DNA of 64,000 nucleotides from Flavobacterium franklandianum (lineage in GTDB: Bacteria; Bacteroidota; Bacteroidia; Flavobacteriales; Flavobacteriaceae), in the NCBI RefSeq assembly GCF_007097365.1, contig NZ_VJZR01000002.1:62001-126000 (forward strand), given 5' to 3'. The notes below the pieces were generated by a model. It saw nothing but the letters and a program-made list of their open reading frames with translations. It had not been told where the DNA came from and searched no databases. Numbering within the stretch: the stretch's first letter is position 1; each line of letters begins with the position of its first letter. The translations under genes and the position numbers were made by a program. Below, one piece after another: positions 37,424 to 41,393 of the stretch.

Positions 37424-40030
37424 TTGTCATCAAAAGAAAAAGTAACCAAGGAAACGCCTTTAATGAAACAATACAACGAAATCAAAAGGAAATATCCTGA
37501 TGCTTGCTTGTTGTTTAGAGTGGGGGATTTTTACGAAACATTTGGTGAAGATGCCGTTCGCGCCTCTAAAATTCTGGGCATAACATTGACAAAACGTGGT
37601 GCAGGCTCCGAGACCGAAACGGCTTTGGCAGGTTTTCCGCATCATTCTATAAATACCTATTTGCCAAAATTAGTAAAAGCAGGACTTCGTGTAGCGATTT
37701 GCGATCAACTCGAAGATCCAAAAATGACCAAAACCATCGTGAAACGTGGCGTTACCGAATTAGTAACTCCAGGAGTTTCGATGAATGATGAGGTTTTGCA
37801 ATCGAAGACAAACAATTTCTTGGCAGCCATTTATTTTGCCAATAAATCTATCGGGATTTCATTTTTGGATGTTTCCACAGGTGAATTTCTAACAGCCCAA
37901 GGGAATGCCGAATATATAGACAAATTGTTGCAGAATTTCAATCCAAGTGAAGTTTTAATTCCAAAAAACAATAAAAATGATTTCCGAGAAACTTTTGGAG
38001 AAGATTTTCATAGTTTCTATCTCGAAGACTGGATTTACAAAGAAGATTATGCTTTTGAAACTTTGACTAAGCATTTTCAAACGACATCTTTGAAAGGTTT
38101 TGGTGTCGAAGAATTGAAGGAAGGAATTATTGCCTCGGGAGCGATTTTGTATTATTTGTCCGAAACACAACATAATAGAGTGCAACACATCACGGCGATT
38201 CAGCGTATTGCCGAAGATGCTTATGTTTGGATGGATCGATTTACGATTCGAAATCTCGAATTGTATCATAGTTACAATCCCAATGCGGTGACGCTTCTGG
38301 ATGTTATAGATAAAACGCTTTCGCCAATGGGTGGACGTTTGCTCAAACGTTGGTTGGCTTTGCCTTTGAAAGATGCTAATAAAATAAGAAGCCGCCATCA
38401 GGTAGTTTCTTATTTGAAAGCGAATCAAGAAGTCTTGAAGAATATCCAAAAACAAATCAAACAGATTTCCGATTTGGAACGTTTGATTTCGAAAATTGCT
38501 GCTGGAAAAGTATCGCCTCGTGAAGTGGTTTATTTAAAAGAATCATTGGATGCCATTATTCCAATAAAAACTTTAGCGTTGCAAAGTCCTCATGAAGCCG
38601 TGAAAGTCATTGGCGACAGCCTGCACAGTTGCGATTTATTGCGTGAAAAAATTAAAACAGTCTTGAATCAAGATGCGCCGGTGGCTGTCGCCAAAGGGAA
38701 TGCCATTGCCAAAGGTATCAATGCAGAATTAGACGAATTGCGCGCCATATCAACATCTGGAAAAGAATATTTGGAAGGAATCGAAAAACGAGAATCCGAA
38801 AGAACGGGAATTTCGTCTTTGAAAATTTCCTTCAATAATGTTTTTGGATATTACATCGAAGTTCGAAACACGCATAAAGATAAAGTCCCAACGGAATGGA
38901 TTCGAAAACAAACTTTGGTCAATGCTGAACGTTACATTACCGAGGAATTAAAAGAATATGAAACTAAAATTCTAGGTGCCGAGGAAAAAATTCATAAAAT
39001 TGAAGTGGAGTTATTCGAGCAATTAGTTGGTTGGATTGCAACTTATATCAAACCGGTTCAAATGAACGCCAATTTGGTGGCGCAACTGGATTGTTTGTGT
39101 TCCTTCACGCAATTGGCAATCGAAAATAAATACGTTTGTCCTGAACTAGATGAGACTTTCGAATTGGAGATCAAAAACGGAAGGCATCCCGTTATCGAAA
39201 AACAATTGCCCGTTGGTGTGCCTTATATTGCCAATGATGTTTTCTTAGATAGAGAAACGCAGCAGCTAATAATGATAACTGGGCCAAATATGTCTGGAAA
39301 ATCAGCTATTTTGCGTCAAACCGCTTTAATTGTACTCTTGGCTCAAATGGGAAGTTTTGTCCCGGCAGATAGCGTGAGAATGGGGATTATAGATAAAATA
39401 TTCACCAGAGTAGGAGCTTCAGATAATATTTCGATGGGAGAATCTACTTTTATGGTCGAAATGAACGAAACCGCTTCTATTTTGAATAATATTTCAGACC
39501 GAAGTTTGGTTTTGTTAGACGAAATCGGAAGAGGAACTAGTACCTATGACGGAATTTCTATCGCTTGGGCAATTGCTGAGTTCTTGCACGAACATCCATC
39601 AAAGCCGAAAACGCTTTTTGCAACGCATTATCACGAGTTGAATGAAATGAGCGAATCCTTGCCGAGAATCCAGAATTATAATGTTTCGGTCAAAGAGTTA
39701 AAAGATACCGTTCTTTTTATTCGAAAACTGGTAAAAGGAGGAAGTGCGCATAGTTTTGGAATTCACGTCGCAAAAATGGCAGGAATGCCACAAATCGTAA
39801 TTTTGAAAGCCCAAAAGCTTTTGAAAAAATTAGAGAAAGACCATTCCAGCGATGCTTTAAACGGAATAAAATCTGCGAAAGATGACATGCAAATGAGTTT
39901 CTTTAATTTAGACGATCCTTTGTTGGAAGAAATCAAAAATGAGATTTTAAGCTTGGACATCAACACAATTACACCAATGGAAGCCTTGATGAAACTCAAC
40001 GAAATCAAGAGAATGCTGACTAAAAAATAG
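37424..40030 (+). CDS. mutS: DNA mismatch repair protein MutS
   Basis: Recognises mismatches and starts repair with MutL. 868 residues: mismatch-binding domain with the [11 protein letters not shown] (Phe-x-Glu wedge: FYETFGEDA) near residue 35, connector and lever domains, and a C-terminal ABC-type ATPase with Walker [10 protein letters not shown] (about 620), Walker [17 protein letters not shown] (about 695) and [10 protein letters not shown]. The start is TTG, giving [17 protein letters not shown], which is where family members begin. No ATG lies close upstream in frame. Its stop is about 90 nt from the promoter of the tRNA pair. Confidence 0.96.
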
Positions 40031-40099
40031 TTCTATTGCTTTTAAAGTTTGGGTTTTCAGTAGCTTAGCTTTTGACGGTGTTTTTTTTATAAAAAACGC

Positions 40100-40129
40100 T
40101 TGTATAATTGAATTAATGTATTAAATTTG
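40100..40129 (+). promoter_or_regulatory. Predicted Bacteroidota promoter of the tRNA genes
   Basis: TTG (40100-40102), 19 nt, then TAAATTTG (40122-40129), a full consensus match. The first base of tRNA-Gly is 46 nt downstream. Confidence 0.75.
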
Positions 40130-40174
40130 CATCCGCAATACGGTTAAGTATTGAGTTCTTTTTAAAATGAAAAT

Positions 40175-40247
40175 GCGAAAATAGCTCAGTTGGTAGAGCG
40201 CGACCTTGCCAAGGTCGAGGTCGCGGGTTCGAGCCCCGTTTTTCGCT
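40175..40247 (+). tRNA. tRNA-Gly (anticodon GCC)
   Basis: A 73-nt cloverleaf: acceptor GCGAAAA / TTTTCGC, D-arm GCTCAGTTGGTAGAGC, anticodon stem CGACC / GGTCG with loop TTGCCAA (anticodon GCC at 40208-40210), T-arm GCGGGTTCGAGCCCCGT. No encoded CCA is seen. Reads GGC and GGU glycine codons. A promoter matching consensus lies just upstream. Confidence 0.97.
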
Positions 40248-40265
40248 CAAAACCATACGCTTAGT

Positions 40266-40526
40266 AGGTGTTAGATTTAATTGAATTTTTCAATTGGGTT
40301 TAAAATCAAAAAGTAAAGTGCTCGGATGGTGTTGTATTTAATTAATTTTTATAAAAATTAGATATAACATTTAAAAGTAAAATTGAAACGCTCGGATGGT
40401 GCTATATTTAATTAATTTTTTCTAAAAATTAGATATAACATTTAAAAGCAAAAATTGAAACGCTCGGATGGTGCTATATTTAATTAATTTTTTCTAAAAA
40501 TTAGATATAACATTTAAAAGCAAAAT
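40266..40526 (+). repeat. Tandem hairpin repeats carrying copies of the tRNA-Leu 5' end
   Basis: Three units (40320-40389, 40390-40461, 40462-40526) each begin with GCTCGGATGGTG, the exact first 12 nt of the downstream tRNA-Leu. Each continues with a T-rich segment, a small hairpin (TAATTTTT / AAAAATTA) and ATATAACATTTAAAAG. A fourth, diverged unit (about 40266-40319) has GGTGTTAGATTTAATT and a different hairpin (AATTGA / TCAATT) at the same place but no tRNA fragment. The units fill the whole spacer between the two tRNA genes and should be part of their primary transcript. Confidence 0.88.
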
Positions 40527-40612
40527 GCTCGGATGGTGAAATTGGTAGACACGCTGGACTTAAAATCCAGTGAACAGTAATGTTCGTGCGGGTTCAAGTC
40601 CCGCTCTGAGTA
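40527..40612 (+). tRNA. tRNA-Leu (anticodon UAA)
   Basis: An 86-nt class II tRNA: acceptor GCTCGGA / TCTGAGT (a G-U first pair), D-arm with GAAATTGGTAGACAC, anticodon stem CTGGA / TCCAG with loop CTTAAAA (anticodon TAA at 40561-40563), a long variable arm (TGAACAGTAATGTTCGT) and T-arm GCGGGTTCAAGTCCCGC. Its first 12 nt are repeated three times upstream. A terminator follows within 10 nt. Confidence 0.97.
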
Positions 40613-40618
40613 CTGAAA

Positions 40619-40660
40619 AAAAGCCGTAAAGAATTAATTTTTAATTCTTTTCGGTTTTTT
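40619..40660 (+). terminator. Terminator of the tRNA transcript
   Basis: CCG-AAAGAATTAA / TTAATTCTTT-CGG stem with a T-T mismatch and 3-nt loop, followed by eight Ts. Confidence 0.85.
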
Positions 40661-40973
40661 TTATGCCTTGTTGCTAAACTCTTCCTCAGCAAATCTTCCT
40701 TTTTAGACTAACTAATATTTATGCTTAATTTTTATCGATCCACAGGTTTTGGGATTGATCCAGCAATTCTTTCTATTCAAAGGCTATTTCAGTATAACTT
40801 AAAAAAGATAGTTTAAATTAAACAAAAAAGCCATAACATTTTACTGTGTATGGCTTTCTGTTTTTCGAAAATTAAATTGCTCTATAATACATATAAACGC
40901 TAATTCAAAATTTTGACATCAAGGCAAAAAAAAAGCTACGCAATGCGTAGCTTATTTTTTCTGTAATTTAGAA
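40661..40973. other. Intergenic stretch without a visible gene, two hairpins
   Basis: No convincing ORF on either strand. It contains a hairpin AAAGCCATA / TATGGCTTT (40827-40857) of terminator type with no recognisable gene attached, and AAGCTACG / CGTAGCTT (40933-40953), a terminator for the leftward lipoprotein gene (minus-strand T run follows). Confidence 0.6.
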
Positions 40974-41171
40974 TTACTTAGCAGCTGGAGCTTCAGGAGC
41001 AACAGCAGTTGTGTCAGTAACTACAGTAGTTGAGTCAGTAACTACAGCAGTAGTGTCCATAACAACAGCAGTAGTGTCTACAGTTGTAGTTTCAGCAGCT
41101 GGTTCAGCTTTTTTACATGATACAACAGTCAATACAGCAACAACGGCTAAACTTAAAAGTACTTTTTTCAT
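40974..41171 (-). CDS. Small lipoprotein with DTTAVV repeats
   Basis: 65 residues. A lipoprotein signal peptide with lipobox VVSC (Cys19) is followed by KKAEPAAE and then four imperfect copies of a six- to eight-residue TDTTAVV-like unit, ending in APEAPAAK. The mature chain has only Thr, Val, Ala, Asp and a few others; it should be disordered or elongated. A TATCTTTG -7 box lies about 40 nt upstream. Function unknown; such tiny Thr-rich lipoproteins look common in Flavobacteria. Confidence 0.8.
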   Translation of the reverse strand: MKKVLLSLAVVAVLTVVSCKKAEPAAETTTVDTTAVVMDTTAVVTDSTTVVTDTTAVAPEAPAAK

Positions 41172-41393
41172 CTTACTTAATTATAAAAGGTTAATTATTA
41201 ATTCGGGGCAAAGATATAAATTTTTTAATAGTTAAAATATTTTTTCATTATTTTTTTAAAATATTTTTTTTCTTTCAAAAACTTGAAATGGAATTACATC
41301 TAATTTGACTTTATAAATAAATACTTAATAAATAGTCAGCATTCTAATAGAACTCTTTTTTTTGTAATATTTTGAGTGTCATTTCCCTTAGTT

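Follow-up and report, generated by a model that had tools for sequence, protein, structure and literature searches.

A Palindromic Core Between Duplicated Gene Ends in Flavobacterium Looks Like a Miniature Insertion at tRNA and a Few Other Genes

Introduction

Large mobile elements classically integrate at transfer RNA genes, and integrase attachment sites are gene-end targets at which the gene is rebuilt. MITEs are short and palindromic, and produce target duplications of a fixed, short length. Moreover, the tyrT/rtT repeats of enteric bacteria are tandem units located beside a tRNA gene, in which the tRNA end is repeated. The rtT RNA is listed as a strain-variable repeat of varying copy number (PMC2658671), and tagged REPs are defined by GTAG/CGTC tags, a high copy number and a link to a transposase (PMC3733652).

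Here, we describe a tandem array between tRNA-Gly(GCC) and tRNA-Leu(UAA) of Flavobacterium franklandianum, in a 64,000-nucleotide stretch of the genome (hereafter, the window). Its units carry a palindromic core of 25 nt with arms TAATTTTT/AAAAATTA, which recurs at other gene ends of the genus. The core resembles REP/REPtron systems in its palindrome of about 20-40 bp (here, 25 nt), extragenic position, lineage-restricted distribution and arrangement in arrays. Unlike REPs, it occurs in few copies (no more than 8 per genome) at strict gene-end targets with duplication; of 418 cores, only 22 had GTAG/CTAC within 12 nt on the left and 2 on the right, none had CGTC/GACG, and there was no tie to an IS200/IS605-type tyrosine transposase (Fisher p 0.83). 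With tyrT/rtT, the array shares tandem tRNA-end units beside a tRNA gene and a variable copy number, whereas here one palindrome is common to eight genes in many species and sits at either the 5' or the 3' end. The rtT family was absent from the 12 Rfam matches with E up to 1 in the region 39900-41200, where only the two tRNAs reached the gathering score.

Likeness to MITEs includes the short palindrome, the target duplication and the empty sites in relatives at Leu(UAA), Leu(CAA) and Ser; however, the duplicates range from 11 to about 80 bp across targets, the targets are strictly gene ends, and this candidate element is without a known parent transposase. Integrase attachment sites likewise have a gene-end target and a rebuilt gene, but the insert here comprises tens of bases and 5' ends are also used. 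No integrase gene was present in the inserts, which at the sites read span about 20 to 54 bp and contain no gene at all. A literature search by title and abstract opening, with most subscription journals outside its coverage, returned no description of these repeats.

Results

Array Between tRNA-Gly and tRNA-Leu(UAA)

A preliminary description of the window, made from the sequence alone, had recognized three close units between the two tRNA genes as tandem repeats headed by an exact copy of tRNA-Leu nucleotides 1-12, each with a hairpin, and these repeats were borne out (Table 1). A tandem array was detected at 40299-40525 (TRF: period 72, 3.2 copies, 91% matches), and GCTCGGATGGTG, which corresponds to tRNA-Leu nucleotides 1-12, occurs exactly in units 1 to 3 and at the start of the tRNA itself, successive starts being spaced 70, 72, and 65 nt. 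No further position of the window matched with 2 mismatches allowed (4 matches in total; at this level, the shuffle mean was 1.26 and 4 matches were reached in 5/100 shuffles). In each unit the tRNA piece is followed by 5 nt and the palindromic core, TTTAATTAATTTTTTCTAAAAATTA, which is perfect in units 2 and 3 (chance expectation 0.01 within 3 mismatches) and one base shorter in unit 1.

The same description had added a fourth, older unit lacking the tRNA piece. This unit 0 is indeed decayed, but the piece is not simply missing: its position is taken by GCTTAGTAGGTG, which equals GCTCGGATGGTG at 8/12 letters and is followed by a decayed core, TTTAATTGAATTTTTCAATTG. Similarly decayed first units were found in relatives (L225, L223, L071).

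Table 1. Positions of the two tRNA genes and of the array units within the window.
Feature	Position	Strand	Basis
tRNA-Gly(GCC), upstream partner of the pair	40175..40248	+	tRNA prediction, Rfam
Unit 0 (oldest), decayed copy of tRNA-Leu nt 1-12, 8/12 letters equal	40259..40270	+	Read from sequence; comparable first units seen in relatives
Unit 0, decayed palindromic core	40276..40296	+	Read from sequence; RNA fold of 40258-40315 has z -3.76
Unit 1, exact copy of tRNA-Leu nt 1-12	40320..40331	+	Motif search
Unit 1, core shorter by one base	40337..40360	+	Read from sequence
Unit 2, exact copy of tRNA-Leu nt 1-12	40390..40401	+	Motif search
Unit 2, perfect 25-nt core	40407..40431	+	Motif search
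Unit 3, exact copy of tRNA-Leu nt 1-12	40462..40473	+	Motif search
Unit 3, perfect 25-nt core	40479..40503	+	Motif search
Stretch from last core to tRNA-Leu, absent from empty sites	40504..40526	+	Comparison with relatives
tRNA-Leu(UAA), intact target gene	40527..40613	+	tRNA prediction; next best genome match at most 75% identical

Upstream of the tRNA pair lies an ORF of 868 aa (37424-40030), which, from its translation, we take to be mutS. A simple scan placed a single terminator-like site inside tRNA-Gly and none in the Gly-Leu spacer, and the array is probably transcribed together with both tRNAs. An assembly artefact is unlikely, because such arrays recur in many genomes, some of them single-contig.

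Core Family Across Flavobacterium

With up to 2 mismatches, the core was identified in 164/398 genomes of the genus, against 6 for a reversed-pattern control, the most matches in one genome being 8 (G068). When the spacer was used as query, 108/199 genus genomes gave matches, many of the core alone; each of the 30 best loci contained a tRNA, namely Leu(UAA) with Gly, and also Leu(CAA), Cys, Ser(GGA), and Ala(GGC). Among loci fetched by the core alone, 28/30 had a tRNA or 5S gene no more than 1 kb away; the other two were a contig edge with tRNA-Cys pieces (L097) and a locus with neither gene (L077). In all, eight targets were recognized (one of the underlying group tables runs to L192): the 5' ends of Leu(UAA), Leu(CAA), and ribBA, and the 3' ends of Cys, Ser(GGA), Ala(GGC), 5S (L183, L075), and trxB, the last gene and ribBA being named from our reading of their translations. 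Both protein genes are single cases: ribBA in Flavobacterium sp. UBA8409 (L229), and trxB in G152, where units of 68 nt consist of the last trxB codons and the core. The G152 assembly breaks within this array (L248 and L249, at G152:C16 start and G152:C4 end).

At family level, 12/299 genomes matched, 2 of them from the genus itself (reversed control, 3). The ten out-of-genus matches comprise five at tRNA-Cys (L104, L105, L106, L108, L109) and five elsewhere. The insertion at Cys may thus predate the genus. A Leu-type duplicate of any sequence was present in 4/249 family genomes: the window's own, two with another palindrome, and one unrelated. An exact search of named genomes yielded 117 stretches, including scattered ones in AT-rich organisms (e.g., Prochlorococcus) away from tRNA genes. 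The core was further detected beside tRNA genes on MAG contigs labelled Candidatus Nitrotoga, Bifidobacterium breve, Rhizobium, and Klebsiella pneumoniae (L114, L145, L161, L225), labels that are probably wrong.

Unit Anatomy, Orientation, and Duplication

Read from outside the gene inward, a unit presents a gene end, the break, about 5 nt (often TAAC, TATC, or TATA), the core, a flank, and the next gene end. In most cases a copy of the gene end stands on either side of the core, and one gene copy stays whole. At the Leu genes, the array is upstream and the repeated piece covers nucleotides 1-12 (UAA) or about 1-11 (CAA). At Cys, Ser, and Ala, the array is downstream and the piece is the 3' end from the T-loop (for Cys, from the anticodon loop in some genomes). 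At these three genes and at 5S, the core is downstream in the orientation opposite to that of the gene, and at Cys and 5S it is past the terminator. The inner break falls within a tRNA hairpin loop or next to one, namely the D-loop for Leu, the T-loop or anticodon loop for Cys, and the T-loop for Ser and Ala. Among cores with up to 2 mismatches in L001-L100, 177/183 lay within 900 nt of a tRNA and the orientation rule was kept in 177/177, some of these loci covering the same place.

A local duplication (score above 20 shuffles) accompanied 377/411 tRNA- or 5S-linked cores with up to 3 mismatches, and was absent at 34. Units measured 65-72 nt at Leu, Ser, and Ala, 68 at trxB, and 88-122 at Cys, with the terminator included; one Leu row had a double unit of 134 (16 locus-level rows). 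At L240 the core stands beside tRNA-Cys with no tRNA piece beyond it, and the cores of L077 and L230-L232 are likewise without duplicated gene ends. In these last three, each from a different genome, a histidine-kinase gene and a TolC-like gene flank a variant of the core ending in ATGA.

At Cys loci found through the core, identity was 0.93 for the core and 0.78 for the tRNA piece, a comparison biased by the search itself. In 30 loci found through tRNA-Cys (10 of them with 18 units), the values were 0.81 and 0.72, with a best-fit background of 0.55, a weak sign only that the core may decay more slowly than the piece.

Empty Sites, Occupied Sites, and Copy Number

The Leu(UAA) site was empty in 96/199 genomes, in which the Gly-Leu pair is separated by 8-28 nt only. 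Where empty genomes (G002, G146) read AAAACCATACT GCTCGGATGGTG, the occupied locus L006 reads AAAACCATACT GCTCGGATGGTG, 54 bp with the core, and GCTCGGATGGTG again; L006 is thus 66 bp longer and contains a 12-bp direct repeat (13 to 15 bp at some loci, counting equal neighbouring letters). The same pattern was repeated at Leu(CAA) (L326 vs. L011) and Ser (L344 vs. L024), and empty sites of both Leu genes are devoid of the core and of the stretch adjoining it.

At tRNA-Cys, a terminator follows the gene in the 30/30 genomes read by eye. After it, TAATTTTT is present at two sites with no visible duplicate (L282, L289), and the last trxB copy is similar. The outer TAATTTTT part at Cys and trxB may therefore be native flank. 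Given these two sites, either the Cys insert may measure only about 20 bp with a long duplicate, or they may be leftovers of loss.

In a mutS tree of 56 loci (26 occupied and 30 empty, after removal of 9 duplicates from 65), the Leu(UAA) state required 10 changes, 8 of them forced by well-supported branches; not all of them are gains, since loss between repeats is easy. Unit number (cores at up to 5 mismatches) also differed between relatives, with relatedness taken as identity of the gene's other flank: 4 vs. 2 (L002, L003; 91.9%) and 1 vs. 0 (L015, L253; 91.8%) at Leu, and 5, 3, or 1 vs. 0 at Ser (L024, L171, L356 vs. L358; 91.7-96.6%). Many Cys pairs of relatives differed as well. As the preliminary description had envisaged, unit number varies among relatives and the tRNA piece and palindrome persist.

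A search with ribBA, in which the core was not used, returned the window's own genome (L393), where a decayed copy of the ribBA 5' end lies upstream of ribBA and is followed by a decayed core with 4 mismatches. The alignment score of the ribBA copy was 56, against 37 for the best of 500 shuffles, 16-35 in 14 relatives, and 154 in UBA8409 (16 loci, with L405 left unscored). At least two such insertions, of which one is young and the other old, are therefore present in the window's genome.

RNA Folding and Arm Complementarity

In equilibrium folds of the Gly-array-Leu RNA, the 3' acceptor strand of tRNA-Leu had 5.9 expected pairs with the unit 1 piece and 0.01 with its own 5' strand. Across loci up to L279, with repeated value sets dropped, at least 3 pairs between this strand and sequence upstream were expected in 22/30 occupied and 0/25 empty loci, and the own acceptor stem had fewer than 3 in 24/30 occupied versus 6/25 empty loci. 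Such folds represent thermodynamics, apart from kinetics, co-transcriptional folding, and proteins. The tRNA-Leu(UAA) gene presumably matures in vivo, because it is the sole match above 75% identity in its genome.

The suggestion that the fold is what is kept fared differently by target. At Leu(UAA), arm complementarity was higher within than between units and 0/500 permutations reached the observed mean, a result compatible with selection acting locally on a transcribed array or with copying by fold-back. The mean was reached in 43 of 500 permutations at Ser, in 107 at Leu(CAA), which is not significant, and in 497 at Cys, where no within-unit excess was seen; Ala (4) and 5S (2) were too few. 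Compensated arms (TC/GA) were seen in 3/89 Cys segments. The hairpin as a general function was rejected, as arm complementarity exceeds permutation at Leu(UAA) only.

Two window units folded as RNA with z -1.73 and -3.07, and the oldest with -3.76; as single-stranded DNA, one window unit folded no better than shuffles (z -0.47). At four Leu(CAA) loci (L019, L012, L011, L043), CATCC or CCATC(C) follows the core; since this stretch complements the duplicated piece GGATGG, it could close that piece into a hairpin of its own. For the L019 unit, folding gave z -4.86 as DNA and -3.77 as RNA.

Discussion

The core occurs with other gene ends at Cys, Ser, Ala, 5S, trxB, and ribBA, which points to a common cause at the DNA level and not to a device for tRNA-Leu processing. 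We consider it somewhat likelier than an even chance (probability of roughly 0.55) that each unit is a copy of a palindromic miniature DNA insertion found in Flavobacterium, which duplicates its target and is then subject to tandem changes in copy number. The direct observations are a conserved core in a fixed orientation, duplications, alternation of empty and occupied sites, copy-number variation, and few targets, mostly stable-RNA genes. Against an insertion, no enzyme was found, the core was not seen in viral contigs, insert and duplicate lengths differ by target, and the expected duplicate is lacking at the exceptions described above (34/411 linked cores, L240, L077, L230-L232).

The element looks like an undescribed kind of miniature insertion. 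Tentatively, and at odds below even, it could represent a new system in which exposed hairpin loops close to an essential gene's end receive a fixed palindrome from a putative enzyme, the end being duplicated and the host gene rebuilt each time. A recombinase or transposase would place the palindrome at sites of the tRNA-loop type, perhaps exposed as single-stranded hairpins at the time of insertion. Offset breaks and subsequent filling would give the gene-end duplication, and arrays would grow or shrink through unequal recombination or slippage between units. No association of the core with Y1_Tnp was found (with/without Y1_Tnp, 31/14 in genomes with the core and 37/19 in those lacking it; Fisher p 0.83), and an IS200-type transposase was rejected as the mobiliser, 14 genomes having the core in the absence of Y1_Tnp.

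The main rival dispenses with a mobile element: slippage or template switching at hairpins would duplicate gene ends, and the core would be copied from an existing array by way of short stretches in common (TAATTTTT on the outside, T-loop or Leu 5' sequence on the inside) or would persist as a cis element of some use. Indeed, TAATTTTT follows the Cys terminator where no duplicate is seen (L282, L289) and also the last trxB copy, T-loop sequence is common to Cys, Ser, and Ala, the two Leu genes share their 5' ends, and unit number changes readily. However, trxB and ribBA share no tRNA sequence, the same 25 nt stand in a single orientation at eight genes, and empty Leu(UAA) and Leu(CAA) sites lack both the core and the stretch beside it. 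The slippage origin first put forward holds insofar as the units are duplications, and plain slippage alone does not account for one core at eight genes; we regard this rival as unlikely, though it deserves serious weight. Far less credible is that the units are attachment-site scars of larger integrative elements using tRNA or other gene ends, with the core as an element arm left after deletion. Although gene-rebuilding end targets and breaks in tRNA loops are typical of integrases, 5' ends are targets too, and the repeated gene end is common to both sides, whereas the bases between gene end and core differ from the native ones beside the break, which may speak against a common crossover segment. 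Furthermore, exact 24- and 21-nt core patterns had no match in the viral collection, and phages and plasmids gave weak AT-rich matches only, in other bacteria.

Equally improbable, in our judgment, is that the array is kept for its effect on tRNA-Leu maturation, each unit acting as a decoy of the tRNA 5' strand, a possible effect that had been raised at the outset. Such pairing with the tRNA-Leu 3' half did appear in the equilibrium folds, both in the window and in the contrast between occupied and empty loci, and the within-unit complementarity at Leu(UAA) speaks for it as well. As an explanation it fails to cover cores at 3' ends past terminators and at protein genes; besides, the Leu site is empty in nearly half of the genomes, 6/25 empty loci fold badly too, and the folds leave aside co-transcriptional folding and proteins. 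Under the favored reading of a miniature insertion, the predicted decoy pairing would be a local side effect, in which tRNA pieces at Leu may compete with the real 5' strand.

A palindrome of ~25 nt that recurs across the genus at only a few gene ends, with the gene still functional, would, if mobile, offer a minimal model for the spread of small palindromes and the targeting of tRNA-gene hairpin loops. The arrays are quickly changing markers, and those at Leu(UAA) let one ask, in a natural setting, how maturation of an essential tRNA proceeds past decoys of its own 5' end.

Second palindromes, TCCCGATAGCTATCGGGA and CCCGAAGCTTCGGG, were observed in pseudo-copies of tRNA-Leu, Cys, and 5S, where they occupy positions of the D- or T-loop, or at other places of these loci (L371, L372, L046, L062, L075, L092, L136, L148, L238, L291, L292, L297). 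Since TCCCGATAGCTATCGGGA lies in the D-loop of a tRNA-Leu pseudo-copy of another genus (L372), with a similar palindrome in a further genus (L371), and CCCGAAGCTTCGGG within duplicated Cys and 5S pieces, it is hinted that tRNA loops may be attractive to small palindromes. Downstream of the array, the window also contains a short Ala/Thr/Val-rich ORF with a lipoprotein-like start (40974-41171, minus strand) and a 21-bp tandem repeat at 40993-41078 (4.1 copies).
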